Shown piece after piece: positions 1 through 9,498 of a DNA stretch of 9,498 bases. Below the pieces are notes generated by a model. It had not been told where the DNA came from. It saw nothing but the letters and a program-made list of their open reading frames with translations, and did not search any database. Position 1 is the first letter of the stretch; each line of letters opens with the position of its first letter. Source of the stretch: Candidatus Hydrogenedentes bacterium CG07_land_8_20_14_0_80_42_17 (lineage in GTDB: Bacteria; UBA8481); contig PEWQ01000032.1 of the NCBI GenBank assembly GCA_002780065.1, forward strand, positions 1-9,498, given 5' to 3'. Both the position numbers and the translations under genes were made by a program.

Positions 1-82
1 CGCTGAGACACAGAGGCACAGAGAAAAAGATAGATAAAAATAAAAAATTATTTAAAAATCTCCGTGTCTCAGTAACTCAGTG
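1..82. repeat. Imperfect inverted repeat of 'ctgagacacagag' type
   Basis: Bases 1-23 and 60-82 pair as reverse complements at 17 of 23 positions, with an AT-rich loop between them. The left arm may continue before the window. Both arms are the 'cactgagacacagag / ctccgtgtctcag' kind of degenerate word that I recall as dispersed intergenic filler in many environmental bacterial genomes (recollection, not searched). Nothing in it looks coding. Confidence 0.55.
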
Positions 83-2363: not shown

Positions 2364-3536
2364 ATGGCCGACAAAGTAGTTGAAGTCACTCAGAAGGGTT
2401 ATTTTTCGAGAATAGGCAATTCATTCAAAGGCATTGTTTTTGGACTGATACTTTTTGTCGTATCAATTGGGCTTTTGTTTTGGAACGAGGGCAGAGCAGT
2501 TAAAACTGCAAAGACATTGAAGGAAGGCAAAACAGCAGTTATATCTGTGCCGGTAGAACCCATAAATGGCGCGAACGATGACAGATTAATTCACACCATC
2601 GGCATGGCGAATACGGATGAGATACTTATCGATCCTGAATTCGAGTTAAGCAGAAATGCTTTGCGATTTAGGCGTGACGTAGAAATGTATCAATGGGAAG
2701 AAGATAAAAAAACGGAAGAAAGAAAAAAGCTTGGCGGCGGAACAGAAGAGATTACAACTTATGAATACAAAAAAGTTTGGTCCAGTTCTTTAATAAATTC
2801 ATCGGACTTTAAAGAGATATCAGGTCATGACAATCCTAACTCAATTCAATTTAAGAGCCAGACATGGAATGCCGGCAAAGGCACGCTAGGTGCGTTTTCG
2901 CTGACATCTGAACTTATAGAGAAAATCGATTCGTTTCGTAATGCTTCACTTTCGGATTCGGATTATGAAACATTTATGAAGGCGAATACGGGGAAAAAAG
3001 TTAATCGTATTGAGAACGGTTATTATATCGGAGCTGATCAGTCAGCGCCTGCAATAGGAGATATGCGAGTTCGCTTCACTGAGGTCGTTCCGCAATCCGT
3101 GAGCATAATTGGCAAGCAGTTCGGTGGAACTTTTACTGCTTATCAAACATCTGCAGGTGGCTCAATTCTGATGATTGAACCGGGGATTAAAACTGCTGAC
3201 GAGATGTTTGCCTCAGCAGAAAAACAGAACTCAATGATGACTTGGATTCTTCGCGGAGTCGGTTTTATTTTGGCTTGGATTGGCCTCTCAATGATCTTCG
3301 CTCCGCTTTCAGTTATTGCAGATGTTGTGCCGTTTATCGGAACTATTGTTGGAGCCGGAACGTCTATTATTTCCTTTATTATTGCTTTGCCGATTTCGCT
3401 CATTACTATTGCGGTCGCTTGGTTATTTTTTAGACCTGTTCTCGCGATAATGTTGCTGATTCTTGCAGGAGCTATTATTGGCGCAGGAATTTTTTGGGCA
3501 TTCAAGAAGGGCGCGGCTTCTAAGATAGCAAGCTGA
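2364..3536 (+). CDS. TMEM43 family membrane protein
   Basis: This 390-residue protein matches the TMEM43/LUMA family (Pfam PF07787) in layout: one N-terminal transmembrane helix (about 23-40, followed by 'FWNEGRAVKTAKTLKEG'), a soluble loop of about 250 residues, and four hydrophobic segments at the C-terminus (about 293-312, 316-341, 343-357, 359-379). The 'NEGRAV' motif after the first helix is typical. The eukaryotic relative is an inner nuclear membrane protein. The bacterial function is not settled, though some prokaryotic relatives have been proposed to sit in conflict-system loci. Nothing here suggests defence: the neighbours are housekeeping genes. AGGAG at 2353-2357 lies six bases before ATG 2364, a good ribosome binding site. 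The 15-base gap to efp suggests co-transcription. Its stop abuts the stop of the convergent gene. Confidence 0.85.
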   Translation: MADKVVEVTQKGYFSRIGNSFKGIVFGLILFVVSIGLLFWNEGRAVKTAKTLKEGKTAVISVPVEPINGANDDRLIHTIGMANTDEILIDPEFELSRNALRFRRDVEMYQWEEDKKTEERKKLGGGTEEITTYEYKKVWSSSLINSSDFKEISGHDNPNSIQFKSQTWNAGKGTLGAFSLTSELIEKIDSFRNASLSDSDYETFMKANTGKKVNRIENGYYIGADQSAPAIGDMRVRFTEVVPQSVSIIGKQFGGTFTAYQTSAGGSILMIEPGIKTADEMFASAEKQNSMMTWILRGVGFILAWIGLSMIFAPLSVIADVVPFIGTIVGAGTSIISFIIALPISLITIAVAWLFFRPVLAIMLLILAGAIIGAGIFWAFKKGAASKIAS

Positions 3537-4271
3537 TTACAGTCTCATCCTTTTGAAAATCTGTTCAGGTATTATTTTTATTATTGTCAATATCCATCTC
3601 CAGAACCATGGAATGTAAACAATATCTTTTTCAACACTGATCGCTTTGAAGATTAATTCTCCGGCTTCTTTCGCAGACGTAAAAAGAGGATTATGCGGAA
3701 AGCTTGCTGTCATAGGAGTATCCACATATCCAGGCTTTATCGAAATTACTTTGATTCCATATTTATGCAATTTATTTCTAAGCCCGGAAAGATATGTATC
3801 TAAAGCGGCTTTTGTGGCGCCGTAAAGAAAGTTGCTCTGCCTGCCTCTGTCGCCGGCAACAGACACTATCGCCGCAATTTTGCCTGAGCCTTGTTCTATC
3901 ATTTGGTTTGCGATTAGTGTGAGCAGCGAAACATAACTGACGAAGTTTGTCTGAATCATTTTTCGTCCGGACTCAATATTCGAATCCGCTTCCGCTTGAG
4001 GAATATTAATTCCGTGCGCAAGAATTGCGATGTCGATCTTTTCAAGATACTCTGCGGCGCGCTTAATAAAATTTAAATGCTCGTCTGATAGATCTAAATC
4101 AATGCATTCTTCTTTTACATCTGCTCCTAGAACTTTTAATTCATCTGCAATAGAAGTAAGTTTGTTTTCAGTTCTTCCGGTTATGTAGATCTTTGAACCT
4201 TCTTTGGCAAACATTCTCAATGATTCTCTGATCATTGCAGATGTTCCGCCAATAACCAAAATTCTTTTCAT
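3537..4271 (-). CDS. Short-chain dehydrogenase, DprE2-like (keto-pentose reductase)
   Basis: This 244-residue SDR most likely reduces the 2-keto intermediate made by the DprE1-like enzyme encoded just upstream, as DprE2 does in mycobacterial decaprenyl-phosphoryl arabinose synthesis. The catalytic set is readable: Asn109 in 'QTNFVSY', Ser137 in 'IVSVAGDRGRQSN', and Tyr150 and Lys154 in 'YGATK'. The nucleotide loop reads 'GGTSAMIRE' (8-16), where the usual last glycine is replaced by Ile14. A C-terminal amphipathic or hydrophobic stretch ('PWFWRWILTIIKIIP') could associate with the membrane, fitting a lipid-linked substrate. AAGGAG at 4283-4278 lies six bases before the ATG, and the ATG overlaps the upstream TGA (ATGA). 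The exact sugar is not determined by the sequence. Generic SDR activity is the fallback. Confidence 0.82.
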   Translation of the reverse strand: MKRILVIGGTSAMIRESLRMFAKEGSKIYITGRTENKLTSIADELKVLGADVKEECIDLDLSDEHLNFIKRAAEYLEKIDIAILAHGINIPQAEADSNIESGRKMIQTNFVSYVSLLTLIANQMIEQGSGKIAAIVSVAGDRGRQSNFLYGATKAALDTYLSGLRNKLHKYGIKVISIKPGYVDTPMTASFPHNPLFTSAKEAGELIFKAISVEKDIVYIPWFWRWILTIIKIIPEQIFKRMRL

Positions 4272-5626
4272 ACCCTGCTCCTTTTAACTCTTCGCCATAG
4301 ATTCGACGAGAAAGCCGGATCGATGAACTTTTCAAATTTTTCAATGTTGAATGATGAATAGTATAAATCGTCTGCGGACCCGGCGTCTTTCGCCGTATAA
4401 ACCCTTCCGCCGGCTGACCTTGTTATCGCGTCCAAGCGTTTAATTAATTCGATGCTTTTTAATTTTTCAAACGGAAAATCCATTGTGATCGTATAGCCCT
4501 TCATTGGGAATGACAGCATTCCTGGCGATTTTAGTTCTCCGAAATGTTTTAGAACTGTGAGGAAGGAGCCTGTTCCGAGCTTTATTCCAGTCTCAAGCAG
4601 ATCGTGAATTGCGGGGATACCTGCAGTTTCAGGTATGACGCATTGATACTGAAAGAATCCGCGTTTGCCGTATATGCGGTTCCATTTTCCTAAAACATCA
4701 AGCGGATAAAAAAAAGGAGAGTAATGAATCTTGGAGTTTGCAAGCGGCTTTCGAAAATAGGTTTCATTGAATGCTCGAATGGATAATCTATTGAGAAAAA
4801 ATTCGGGAAAGTCGCATGGAATTGTGATGCTGGGATTTTTTTTACCGGGAACAAGAGCTCCTTCTTCTGAATGATTTCCTCGAATGAAGTGGCCGCGGCC
4901 GAAAGATTTTCCTCTCGAAGAGCCGTCAAGCCATGCTACGGTATATTCGTGGGTTGAGTCGGACTCGCGTGAAAGTTTGTCGAAGTCGTTCAGATTTCCG
5001 AAACGAATCGTCTCAGCATCAATAAACGCCGAATGAATCTTCTTTAGTTTTATTTTTGCTTTCGTTATGAGTCCGGTCAGCCCGATGCCGCCTATTGTTG
5101 CATTGAAAAACTCAGGATTGTTTCCGGCAGAAAGAATTAAACTTTTACAATCAGATCTCAGCAACTCAAGCTCTATTATGTGCCGGCCGAATGTTCCTTC
5201 GCGGTGATGATTCTTTCCGTGAACGTCATTTGCAATAGCTCCGCCGAGCGTGACGAATCGGGTGCCTGGCGTCACCGGCAGAAACCAACCATGAGGCACT
5301 ATGAATTCGAGCAGATCTGAAAAAGAAATTCCAGCATCACATTCGATGATGCCGTCTTCTTTATCGAAGCTTATCAGGCGATTAATATTTCTTGTTGAAA
5401 TAATTGTGCCGTTATCGCAAAGACAGCAGTCGCCGTAACTTCTTCCGAGCCCATAAGCGAGGAGAGGAGAAGAATATGGAATAGCCTCATTCAGCCAATA
5501 CGGAATGAATTCATTTTGATTTTGAACCTTGGGATACCGTCCCCATGATTCGAAAGATTCGATTCCGGCTCCAAAAAATTTTTTCAGAAAACTAGAGGGA
5601 TTGTTTGAAGAAATTAAATCGCTCAA
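4268..5626 (-). CDS. FAD-linked oxidoreductase, DprE1-like (decaprenylphosphoryl-ribose oxidase family)
   Basis: This 452-residue flavoprotein has a PCMH-type FAD domain and a C-terminal substrate domain. FAD contacts include 'GLGRSYGD' (59-66) and 'TPGTRFVTLGGAIANDVHG' (119-137) followed by KNHH. The C-terminal half aligns by memory with mycobacterial DprE1 over 'YPLDVLGKWNRIYG', 'GFFQYQCVIP' and 'GGRVYTAKDA'; Lys413 corresponds to DprE1 Lys418. The residue matching DprE1 Cys387, the covalent target of benzothiazinones, is Thr380. The family oxidises the 2'-OH of polyprenyl-phosphoryl ribose; the substrate here is inferred. The start codon is TTG at 5626-5624, because the frame is closed upstream by a nearby TAA and no Met occurs before the FAD domain. 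It overlaps the last BMC-P gene's TGA (TTGA), suggesting coupling. Confidence 0.87.
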   Translation of the reverse strand: MSDLISSNNPSSFLKKFFGAGIESFESWGRYPKVQNQNEFIPYWLNEAIPYSSPLLAYGLGRSYGDCCLCDNGTIISTRNINRLISFDKEDGIIECDAGISFSDLLEFIVPHGWFLPVTPGTRFVTLGGAIANDVHGKNHHREGTFGRHIIELELLRSDCKSLILSAGNNPEFFNATIGGIGLTGLITKAKIKLKKIHSAFIDAETIRFGNLNDFDKLSRESDSTHEYTVAWLDGSSRGKSFGRGHFIRGNHSEEGALVPGKKNPSITIPCDFPEFFLNRLSIRAFNETYFRKPLANSKIHYSPFFYPLDVLGKWNRIYGKRGFFQYQCVIPETAGIPAIHDLLETGIKLGTGSFLTVLKHFGELKSPGMLSFPMKGYTITMDFPFEKLKSIELIKRLDAITRSAGGRVYTAKDAGSADDLYYSSFNIEKFEKFIDPAFSSNLWRRVKRSRV

Positions 5627-5919
5627 TGAAATTTAATGTAGCTGTCGCCTGACTGGACGGCATCGACAATACCGACTATTACTGTTCTGATCGGAGCTGT
5701 TTTATCGTCTAGAACTTGCCGAGCAGAATTGCCTTCATCGATTACGAGCACGCAGTCGCCGACTCCGGCATCGACTTTAGGGTCGAGCGCAAGCTGAACT
5801 TTACCGCACTCTTTTCCGGATAAAGGCTCGATAGGAACTACCAAGAGCAGTTTATGCTTTTCAAGTTTAGCCTGTTTTCTGGTTGCCCATGTTCGCCCTA
5901 CAACTTTAGCAATAAACAT
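5623..5919 (-). CDS. EutN/CcmL microcompartment vertex protein (third BMC-P)
   Basis: This 98-residue BMC-P protein, beginning 'MFIAKVVGRTWATRK', is predicted to form pentamers that cap the vertices of a bacterial microcompartment shell. Family landmarks are present: 'KLLLVVPIEP' (23-32), 'VDAGVGDCVLV' (49-59), 'GNSARQV' and the closing 'IVGIVDAV'. It has about three extra residues in the loop before the 'ALDPKVDAGVGD' stretch compared with its two neighbours. It is the last of three adjacent paralogues, starts three bases after the previous stop, and its TGA overlaps the TTG start of the DprE1-like gene. GGGA at the end of the previous gene is only a weak ribosome binding site. Confidence 0.92.
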   Translation of the reverse strand: MFIAKVVGRTWATRKQAKLEKHKLLLVVPIEPLSGKECGKVQLALDPKVDAGVGDCVLVIDEGNSARQVLDDKTAPIRTVIVGIVDAVQSGDSYIKFH

Positions 5920-5922
5920 TTT

Positions 5923-6207
5923 TCATTTCCCGTCCGTGTATTTGCCGTTGAACTCAACACCGTCGATTATTCCCAAGATAGTTGCATCAACCGGCGGAAC
6001 CTCTTTAAAAGCTACTGCGGCTTCTCTCGCTTTGACGAAGAAGACAAATTCGCCTGAGCCTGCCCCGACAGCATCGAGCGCGACTAGCGGGTCTCCGTCT
6101 TCTTTTTTGTCCCAAGTTAATGGTTGAAGAAGAAGAAGTTTTTTTCCTTCGAGAGCCTGGACCTTTTCAGAGCAGACGACGCGACCGATTATTCGACCAG
6201 CGAACAT
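5923..6207 (-). CDS. EutN/CcmL microcompartment vertex protein (second BMC-P)
   Basis: This 94-residue BMC-P family protein begins 'MFAGRIIGRVVCSEK'. Motifs include 'LEGKKLLLLQPL' (19-30), 'PLVALDAVGAGSGEFV' and 'ATILGIIDGV'. The usual 'GSSAR' turn is changed to 'AREAAVAF', which may alter the pore-side or contact surface. It starts six bases after the first BMC-P stop, has no convincing Shine-Dalgarno, and is probably translated by coupling. It diverges clearly from both neighbours, so this is an old set of paralogues and not a recent duplication. Pentamer formation is inferred from the family. Confidence 0.92.
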   Translation of the reverse strand: MFAGRIIGRVVCSEKVQALEGKKLLLLQPLTWDKKEDGDPLVALDAVGAGSGEFVFFVKAREAAVAFKEVPPVDATILGIIDGVEFNGKYTDGK

Positions 6208-6213
6208 GAAATT

Positions 6214-6513
6214 TTATGAGCCTTGACTTTTATCGAATGTAACTGTTCCGTCGCGCTCCACTGTATCGACGATTGCCATGATTACAGCGTCGCACGGGCG
6301 GCTTTCTGTAAGCTTTGTCTGGCGAGCGGACGAGCCTGAACAAAGCAGAACGAGTTCTCCCGTACCGGCTTGTACGGCATCAACTGCAACCAAAGGATTG
6401 CCGCTAGGCTCATACTTGATGTTCACCGGTTGAACGAGAAGAAGTTTTCTTCCCTCGAGTTTTTCATCTTTTCTTGTGCACACAACTGTGCCGATAACTT
6501 TAGCGAATTGCAT
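6214..6513 (-). CDS. EutN/CcmL microcompartment vertex protein (first BMC-P)
   Basis: This 99-residue BMC-P protein begins 'MQFAKVIGTVVCTRK' and carries the most canonical motif set of the three: 'LEGRKLLLVQPV' (19-30), 'PLVAVDAVQAGTGELVLL', 'GSSARQT' and 'AVIMAIVDTV'. It is the first gene of a tight five-gene (-) operon with two more BMC-P genes and a DprE1/DprE2-like pair. No BMC-H or BMC-T shell gene, aldehyde dehydrogenase or other cargo enzyme is in the window, so the rest of any compartment must be encoded elsewhere. The ATG has no Shine-Dalgarno; a strong promoter ends seven bases before it, predicting a leaderless transcript. Confidence 0.93.
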   Translation of the reverse strand: MQFAKVIGTVVCTRKDEKLEGRKLLLVQPVNIKYEPSGNPLVAVDAVQAGTGELVLLCSGSSARQTKLTESRPCDAVIMAIVDTVERDGTVTFDKSQGS

Positions 6514-6520
6514 AATCTGA

Positions 6521-6567
6521 ATTATAGGATTGCTGAATCATCTTTCAAGCGGAAAAAAATATTTTTT
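6521..6567 (-). promoter_or_regulatory. Strong predicted promoter with UP-like element for BMC-P operon
   Basis: On the minus strand TTGAAA (6548-6543, 5/6) and TATAAT (6526-6521, perfect) are separated by 16 bases. Just upstream, 6566-6556 reads AAAAATATTTT, an exact fit to the core AAAWWTWTTTT of the alpha-subunit UP element, about 42-52 bases before the expected start. The ATG lies seven bases after the -10, so transcription should begin at or within a couple of bases of the start codon. Positions are firm; strength and start site are predictions. Confidence 0.65.
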
Positions 6568-8667: not shown

Positions 8668-8690
8668 ATTATCTTGGCGACATGCGGCGC

Positions 8691-8717
8691 AGGGCGAACA
8701 CGTAGGTTCGCCCCTAC
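8691..8717. repeat. REP-like palindrome (GGGCGAAC hairpin)
   Basis: GGGCGAAC (8692-8699) and GTTCGCCC (8706-8713) form an eight-base-pair perfect stem with a six-base loop (acgtag), followed by CCTAC. The same stem, with loop acacag, occurs twice inside the transposase gene at the right edge. This is the solitary REP of a REP/RAYT pair. It ends just before the predicted gatC -35 box. Confidence 0.75.
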
Positions 8718-8758: not shown

Positions 8759-9043
8759 ATGTCCATTTCTATTGATGAAGTTAAACACATAGCATTTCTG
8801 GCAAGGCTTTCTTTAACCGAAGAAGAAGCTGAAAGGTATTCTAACGACCTTTCGAGAATTCTCGAATACGCGTCGACAATTTGCAAATTGGATACTGCTG
8901 ATGTTCCGACCACCAGCCATGTGATTGAAATAAAAAATGTGCTGAGAGACGATGAAACAGGCAATACGCTCGACAGAGAGACTGTTCTTTCACAGGCTCC
9001 GAGCAGCGATGACGCTTGTTTTATTGCACCGCGTATATTGTGA
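8759..9043 (+). CDS. gatC: Asp-tRNA(Asn)/Glu-tRNA(Gln) amidotransferase subunit C
   Basis: GatC is the small wrapping subunit of the GatCAB complex, which converts misacylated Glu-tRNA(Gln) and Asp-tRNA(Asn) to Gln- and Asn-tRNA. The 94-residue length is normal. The N-terminus 'ISIDEVKHIAFLARLSLTEEE' pattern (3-23), 'LSRILEYAS' and the C-terminal 'LRDDE' (62-66) followed by 'SQAPSSDDACFIAPRIL' are all typical; the intact tail shows the gene is not truncated. Its usual partner gatA is not next: a transposase gene begins at the overlapping GTGA. The presence of GatC suggests that this organism uses the indirect route for Gln-tRNA and/or Asn-tRNA. It is preceded by a REP-like hairpin and a candidate leaderless promoter. 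Confidence 0.93.
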   Translation: MSISIDEVKHIAFLARLSLTEEEAERYSNDLSRILEYASTICKLDTADVPTTSHVIEIKNVLRDDETGNTLDRETVLSQAPSSDDACFIAPRIL

Positions 9044-9498
9044 CAACAACGCTGCTTCAACATCATCGTCGTTCTATTCGTTTGAAGGGATATGATTATT
9101 CACAGCTCGGTTCGTATTTCATTACAATTGTTACCCAGAATCGGGTAATTTTGTTTGGGAAAATTATTGATGATGAAATGGTTTTAAATGATGCGGGGAA
9201 AATGATAAAGAAATGGTATCGTGAAATTGAAAATAAATTTTCCGACATCAAATGTGATGAATTTATTTGCATGCCGAACCATGTCCATTTTATTTTGATG
9301 AATGTTGGATATGAATTTCCCATATCCGCATTCGTAGGTGCAGACCTATGTGTCTGCCCTTGTGAGGGCGAACACACAGGTTCGCCCCTACGCAAATCGG
9401 GTGAATGTAACCAGGGCGAATGGAATCAGGGCGAACACACAGGTTCGCCCCTACGCAAATCGGGTGAATGTAACCAGGGCGAATGGAATCAGGGCGAA
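9040..9498 (+). CDS. RAYT-type (REP-associated) Y1 transposase, 3' end beyond window
   Basis: An open frame of 153 codons runs off the right edge. It begins at GTG 9040, whose bases overlap the gatC TGA. 'HHRRSIRLKGYDYS' (8-21), 'GSYFITIVTQNR', 'GEMVLNDAG'-type sequence ('DDEMVLNDAG') and 'MPNHVHFILM' (78-87) are the hallmarks of COG1943 REP-associated transposases; His81 and His83 form the HUH metal site. The catalytic tyrosine should lie downstream and is not in the window. After residue 88 the frame enters the variable insertion of the family, here 'FVGADLCVCP' and then a 21-residue repeat starting 'GEHTGSPLRKSGE', encoded by REP-like hairpin DNA. RAYTs are single-copy relatives of IS200/IS605 TnpA and are thought to nick and spread REP sequences. 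GTG is the only near-upstream start; CTG 9052 is less likely. Confidence 0.88.
   Translation, partial: MTTTLLQHHRRSIRLKGYDYSQLGSYFITIVTQNRVILFGKIIDDEMVLNDAGKMIKKWYREIENKFSDIKCDEFICMPNHVHFILMNVGYEFPISAFVGADLCVCPCEGEHTGSPLRKSGECNQGEWNQGEHTGSPLRKSGECNQGEWNQGE
9307..9327. repeat. Inverted repeat GGATATG/CATATCC inside transposase gene
   Basis: GGATATG (9307-9313) and CATATCC (9321-9327) are perfect seven-base arms around a seven-base loop. The structure lies directly after the HUH motif codons, at the point where the conserved domain gives way to the repeat-derived insertion. Its role is unknown. Confidence 0.55.
9340..9357. repeat. REP-like hairpin GCAGAC/GTCTGC inside transposase gene
   Basis: GCAGAC (9340-9345) and GTCTGC (9352-9357) pair around a six-base loop (ctatgt), flanked by gtaggt on the left and ccc on the right. 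It has the same architecture as the GGGCGAAC hairpins (short GC-rich stem, six-base loop, GTAG/CTAC-like flanks) but a different stem sequence, so it may be a second REP subfamily. It is read through in frame as 'GADLCVCP'. Confidence 0.55.
9365..9498. repeat. 63-bp tandem repeat carrying REP-like hairpins, in frame
   Basis: The unit beginning agggcgaacacacag repeats exactly at 9365, 9428 and 9491; two full identical copies and eight bases of a third are visible before the window ends. Each unit contains the perfect GGGCGAAC/GTTCGCCC stem (9366-9373/9380-9387 and 9429-9436/9443-9450, loop acacag). The period is 21 codons, so the transposase frame is kept open. Each unit also contains a shorter echo, agggcgaatggaatc, directly before the next unit. 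Confidence 0.9.

Follow-up and report, generated by a model that had tools for sequence, protein, structure and literature searches.

A triplet of BMC-P vertex genes next to a DprE1/DprE2-like gene pair: a probable satellite shell locus whose remaining compartment genes lie on another contig

Gene content and layout of the locus

The window, by which is meant the whole stretch of 9,498 bases that was analysed, is contig C143 of the assembly, and reading of its open reading frames identified five closely spaced genes, all on the minus strand (Table 1). Three BMC-P (EutN/CcmL) genes, here called Pa, Pb and Pc, are followed by a gene for a DprE1-like oxidase and then by one for a DprE2-like reductase. 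Gaps of 6 and 3 bases were found between Pa and Pb and between Pb and Pc respectively, while the remaining junctions are 4-base overlaps, TTGA between Pc and the DprE1-like gene and ATGA between the DprE1-like and DprE2-like genes. The gene order, the single strand, the gaps and the overlaps were all as described in the original prediction.

Table 1. Features of the five-gene locus in the window and gene content of contig C141, in the order of each
Feature	Position	Strand	Description
BMC-P gene Pa	6513-6214	-	EutN_CcmL, 99 aa
BMC-P gene Pb	6207-5923	-	EutN_CcmL, 94 aa
BMC-P gene Pc	5919-5623	-	EutN_CcmL, 98 aa
DprE1-like FAD oxidase gene	5626-4268	-	FAD_binding_4, 452 aa, TTG start overlapping Pc stop
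DprE2-like SDR reductase gene	4271-3537	-	adh_short, 244 aa, ATG overlapping oxidase stop
Sigma-70-like promoter TTGAAA-16-TATAAT	6521..6548	-	11/12 consensus matches
C141 genes 1-3			GGDEF protein; 5'-nucleotidase-family protein; 161-aa protein with EutQ/PduM/TIGR02536-like parts
C141 genes 4-5			PduT-like BMC-T; RnfC/PduS-like protein
C141 genes 6-8			PduP/EutE-type (CoA-acylating) aldehyde dehydrogenase; EutM-like BMC-H; PduL phosphotransacylase

The start/stop overlaps and the tight spacing are a strong signal of co-expression, and selection may have kept them. A scan with the sigma-70 consensus detected no promoter-like site between the genes of the set. The promoter-like site ahead of Pa is a consensus match, and three such sites were found where shuffles gave an expectation of 6.1; as this count is not above chance, it is the spacing and the overlaps that suggest a single transcript carrying both the triplet and the DprE pair. 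The -10 box of the site ends 8 bases ahead of the Pa ATG, therefore the transcript may be leaderless; no Shine-Dalgarno-like stretch was found before this ATG.

It is conceivable that the five genes are coupled in expression only, sharing a constitutive promoter under selection on expression level and having no common pathway. The position of the promoter-like site ahead of the set, with none between the genes, would agree with this, as would the suggestion of Axen et al. (2014) that constitutive expression is one reason why BMC genes in candidate phyla need no clustering (PMC4207490). However, the promoter match does not exceed the shuffle expectation and the arrangement was seen in one genome only, from which selection is not inferable; this explanation was considered unlikely.

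The three BMC-P assignments were supported by Pfam EutN_CcmL E-values of 5e-32, 1e-24 and 4e-23 for Pa, Pb and Pc respectively, and the nearest solved relative of Pa is 5v74. Each gene is orthologous to its counterpart in the triplet of genome G019, with identities of 59% (Pa and gene 1), 53% (Pb and gene 2) and 44% (Pc and gene 3). The BMC-P tree placed them in three separate clades, each with the matching gene from G019 and from G166; SH support for the three ortholog groupings (window, G019, G166) was 0.81, 0.94 and 0.90. BMC-P genes were present in 94 of 386 sampled genomes, 68 of which carried exactly three (counted from the listing).

The remainder of the compartment

A profile search of the contigs found exactly three BMC-P genes in the genome, all of them in the window. 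The BMC-H and BMC-T genes of the same genome were found only on contig C141, where no BMC-P gene is present. The original prediction had stated that BMC-H is missing from the window, which proved true and holds equally for BMC-T, and had pointed to the rest of the genome as the place to look for both.

C141 (9,568 bases) was read over its full length, and the genes encoded on it all lie on one strand. Its aldehyde dehydrogenase and PduL have amphipathic N-termini of the encapsulation-peptide type; its 161-aa protein yielded no solved relative in a structure search, and no signature enzyme was evident on this 9.6-kb contig. The metabolosome core on C141 lacks vertices, and the vertices in the window lack a core. 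The trio is the sole vertex set found for the C141 compartment in an assembly that is about 87% complete, and we infer that it assembles with the C141 shell proteins. With the missing shell and core genes located on C141, the functional puzzle of a lone trio is largely gone. Both contigs are short, and C141 and C143 might be neighbours on the chromosome. Genomes G001, G019 and G166 each encode one BMC-H, one BMC-T adjoining a PduS-like gene, an aldehyde dehydrogenase and the triplet, in each case distributed over three contigs.

The fragmentation of the assembly (207 contigs) and its completeness leave room for an artefact of assembly or binning, in which the junction or the entire contig would be foreign to the organism. 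However, the junction is an in-frame gene overlap of 4 bases, the tetranucleotide profile of the contig correlates at 0.93-0.97 with those of C141, C112 and C47, and the DprE part and the flanking parts are alike in this profile; the correlation for the 0.9-kb triplet alone was noisier, at 0.57-0.66. An artefact was judged extremely improbable.

The DprE1/DprE2-like pair and its linkage to the triplet

Known relatives of the DprE pair epimerise polyprenyl-phosphate ribose to polyprenyl-phosphate arabinose for cell-surface glycans. Pfam searches matched the oxidase of the window to FAD_binding_4 (E 4e-20) and the reductase to adh_short (E 1e-36). The top NCBIfam match of the oxidase was DprE1 (NF053785) with 354 bits, below the equivalog cut-off of 500, and the reductase gave 178 bits with DprE2 (NF053786), below the cut-off of 250, scoring better with the general SDR model PRK07102 (256.5 bits, cut-off 267). 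Mycobacterial DprE1 and DprE2 ranked first for oxidase and reductase in searches of solved structures. With neither protein reaching its equivalog cut-off and the general SDR model outscoring DprE2 for the reductase, 'DprE-like' is an apt name, and the two enzymes are classed from their sequences as family-level homologues and not called equivalogs. The predicted DprE1/DprE2-like pair was upheld as far as family homology and the top structure matches are concerned but did not reach either equivalog cut-off.

In the DprE1-like protein the motifs HGKNHH (residue 136) and YTAKD, with the catalytic lysine (residue 410), occupy conserved alignment columns, and Thr381 takes the place of the cysteine of mycobacterial DprE1. 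The DprE2-like protein has the active-site motif YGATK, and the alignment of its C-terminal amphipathic helix stretch with mycobacterial DprE2 suggests that this stretch is a feature of the family. The pair resembles that of Mycobacterium and many Gram-negative bacteria in the adjacency of oxidase and SDR reductase and in these active-site motifs, and differs in the sub-cut-off scores, in the threonine and in that a DPPR synthase was not found in the genome. The G001 DPPR-like query gave E 3e-4 against this genome (about 87% complete), and its sole UbiA gene, on C112, is of the menaquinone/4-hydroxybenzoate type; in the available assembly the polyprenyl-phosphate arabinose pathway is therefore incomplete.

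The DprE pair is an ordinary, widespread and conserved two-gene unit, a DprE2-like gene starting no more than 300 bases past the end of the oxidase gene in 83 of 90 DprE1-like loci, the window's included. A DPPR-synthase-like UbiA gene, searched for with the G001 homologue, was present in the fetched flanks of 62 of the 80 DprE1-like loci from named genomes. This adjacency and the UbiA genes in the flanks fit the polyprenyl-phosphate pentose pathway, which is found in mycobacteria and Gram-negative bacteria and has membrane-linked lipids as substrates (PMC11127046).

The linkage of triplet and pair was not conserved. None of the 80 other DprE1-like loci had a BMC-P gene in its flanks (up to 8 kb, shorter at contig ends). 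A clear DprE1-like gene was found in 10 of 80 BMC-P genomes, and it was adjacent to BMC-P in the window genome only, adjacency in the other nine being checked over a distance of 1.5 kb; G194 has both on one contig, separated by about 43 kb. G019 and G166 lack DprE1, despite their one-to-one triplet orthologs. The only relative of the same order that was compared, G001, belongs to another family and carries its triplet on C31 and, on C25, the DprE pair beside a GH94 gene and a membrane-protein gene; genomes nearer than this could still differ. The neighbours of the triplet vary by genome: in G001 a DAHP synthase gene follows it and a histidine-kinase-like ATPase gene is present, in G019 the neighbour is a folC-like Mur ligase gene, and the nif3, EF-P, TMEM43, DEAD helicase and GatC genes flanking the locus in the window were not matched at the G001 triplet locus. 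Among the papers searched, none named both a microcompartment and DprE1.

Two readings had been offered in the original prediction, according to which the linkage would be incidental if close relatives kept trio and pair at separate loci, and such a separation was found in G001. The reading that gives the trio a part in a pathway of pentoses or lipid-linked sugars was not borne out, DprE1 being absent from G019 and G166 and none of the 80 loci being linked. The other, a satellite shell locus beside unrelated enzymes, gained support from the further shell genes and core enzymes on C141.

The DprE1-like protein carries an N-terminal extension, MSDLISSNNPSSFLKKFFGAG, of ~20 residues beyond most homologues, the majority of which begin a few residues ahead of the SWGRYP motif. 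The TTG is the sole ATG, GTG or TTG start codon upstream of this motif, so that a gene start at this codon would make the extension genuine. An encapsulation peptide is an amphipathic helix of 15-20 residues with a linker. The helix predicted in the extension has nine residues (10-18) with pLDDT below 50, as throughout residues 1-30, and the extension contains a proline and is unlike the N-termini of the aldehyde dehydrogenase and PduL of the same genome. On balance this speaks, at low confidence, against an encapsulation peptide in the DprE1-like protein. In the DprE2-like protein the N-terminus is not extended at all.

These features bear on the alternative of functional coupling, in which the two DprE-like enzymes would act inside the compartment or at it, on an intermediate derived from ribose for instance, with the extension of the DprE1-like protein as the targeting signal. 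The single predicted transcript with its overlapping genes, an extension that most homologues lack and the 5'-nucleotidase-family protein of C141, which makes nucleotide-derived ribose conceivable, are all compatible with such coupling. Set against these are the lack of conserved linkage, the short, low-confidence helix with its proline and its dissimilarity to the N-termini of the aldehyde dehydrogenase and PduL, a reductase that lacks an N-terminal extension and whose C-terminal helix is shared with mycobacterial DprE2, which is no compartment protein, and known substrates that are membrane-linked lipids (PMC11127046). Functional coupling was considered very unlikely, and even less credence was given to an epimerisation of the lipid-linked-sugar type in or at a protein compartment, perhaps targeted through the extension. 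The probability of any functional link between pair and compartment was put as very small.

A probable satellite triplet in a scattered compartment

The explanation that accounts best for these data, and which we hold to be highly probable, is a satellite BMC-P triplet that serves the C141 compartment, beside an unrelated DprE pair that is co-transcribed with it, no joint function being needed. The triplet would supply the pentameric vertices of the only microcompartment that the genome appears to encode, and C141 its facets and core enzymes. The DprE pair probably arrived behind the triplet by rearrangement and, judging from spacing and overlaps, would now be read from the transcript of the triplet.

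Satellite BMC loci were defined by Axen et al. (2014) as those with only PF03319 or only PF00936 (PMC4207490). The window has only PF03319, in three contiguous copies (6513-5623), and no PF00936; the strict definition asks in addition for another complete locus carrying both shell domains, whereas C141 has PF00936 only and both loci are partial.

A BMC-P triplet was described by Sutter et al. (2021) in the FRAG type, in which the shell genes can occupy as many as six places, mostly far from the enzymes (PMC8217296). The window genome is similar in its triplet of three paralogues remote from enzyme genes, in shell genes spread over several places (C141 and C143 here, three contigs apiece in G001, G019 and G166), in a C141 aldehyde dehydrogenase without an obvious signature enzyme, and in belonging to poorly known phyla. 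It differs in that BMC-H and BMC-T share a contig with PduL and the PduS-like gene, an arrangement more compact than many. The likeness is to the FRAG type as a whole, whose subtypes are marked by the colour composition of their shell proteins, grey and orange BMC-P clades included, and it was judged by gene content and layout, with places told apart by contig.

C141 also resembles a metabolosome with incomplete core (MIC) in its aldehyde dehydrogenase, phosphotransacylase and PduS-like protein with no signature enzyme on the contig, the difference being that the vertex genes of this genome are on another contig. A compartment of the SPU type, which has a DeoC-type aldolase (PF01791) and RpiB (PF02502) with its locus, was considered and rejected on a search for the aldolase; the one weak PF01791 match in the genome (E 1.6e-19) lies on C47, away from the BMC genes.

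The triplet pattern has already been published, and the window is one more scattered compartment gene set, adding a further scattered microcompartment with a BMC-P triplet from a poorly known bacterial order. A true link of the DprE pair to the shell would make this the first compartment connected with the chemistry of lipid-linked sugars, but what was observed argues against such a link. The lesson is that genes next to a satellite shell locus, even in an operon-like arrangement, are not to be taken for cargo before the relatives have been checked.

Transcript start and neighbouring features

Features of the window and of C141, the contig of the same genome (G000) that carries BMC-H and BMC-T, are tabulated below. 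No Shine-Dalgarno-like stretch was found before the first BMC-P ATG, and as this absence is combined with a distance of 8 bases between TATAAT and the ATG, the sequence suggests that the triplet transcript is leaderless or almost so. The TMEM43-family gene and the DprE pair are convergent. At the contig end lie two of the palindromic repeats as a 63-base tandem, and the repeats are adjoined by an open frame (9016-9498) which had no match in Pfam and, by eye, looks like a REP-associated transposase.

Coordinates of features in the window and in L007, a stretch of C141
Feature	Location	Strand	Remark
Region with -10-like box TATAAT	window 6513-6548	-	box ends 8 bases ahead of first BMC-P ATG
Palindromic repeat GGGCGAACAC..GGTTCGCCC	window 8690-8717 and 9364-9490		three copies
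TMEM43-family protein gene	window 2364-3536	+	PF07787, E 3e-82
DprE1-like start region	window 5563-5626	-	TTG start
Metabolosome core, GGDEF and 5'-nucleotidase-family genes	L007 96-8594
161-aa protein gene	L007 3341-3826	-

The DprE1-like protein and UbiA

Sequence comparison showed the DprE1-like N-terminus to be ~20 residues longer than in most homologues, whose start Met corresponds approximately to I22 (ATC). Benzothiazinones bind a cysteine in mycobacterial DprE1, whereas the residue aligned with it here is a threonine, Thr381 (window 4480-4490, minus strand). Despite the DprE-like pair, DPPR synthase was not found in the whole G000 assembly; the sole UbiA found (contig C112, L192 6374-7801) belongs to an in-frame fusion in which a futalosine-hydrolase-like part precedes it.

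The metabolosome core and kinship of the triplet

The order GGDEF, 5'-nucleotidase, 161-aa protein, AldDH and BMC-H is common to C141 and C86 (L036) of G001, a same-order relative. Unlike C141, the G001 stretch lacks PduS, BMC-T and PduL, and a fourth BMC-P lies between its AldDH and BMC-H. The 161-aa C141 protein had no Pfam match, and its NCBIfam matches (TIGR02536, EutQ and PduM) were weak. Its short N-terminus looks helical, and two motifs in its sequence resemble ITPxARDxAExxG.

In a comparison with stretches L035 and L037, the window triplet (5623-6513) shared 44-59% identity with the triplets of G019 and G166, and about 35-46% with the G001 trio. Because the G019 and G166 triplets are closer to it than that of the same-order genome, the triplet may have been transferred between lineages.
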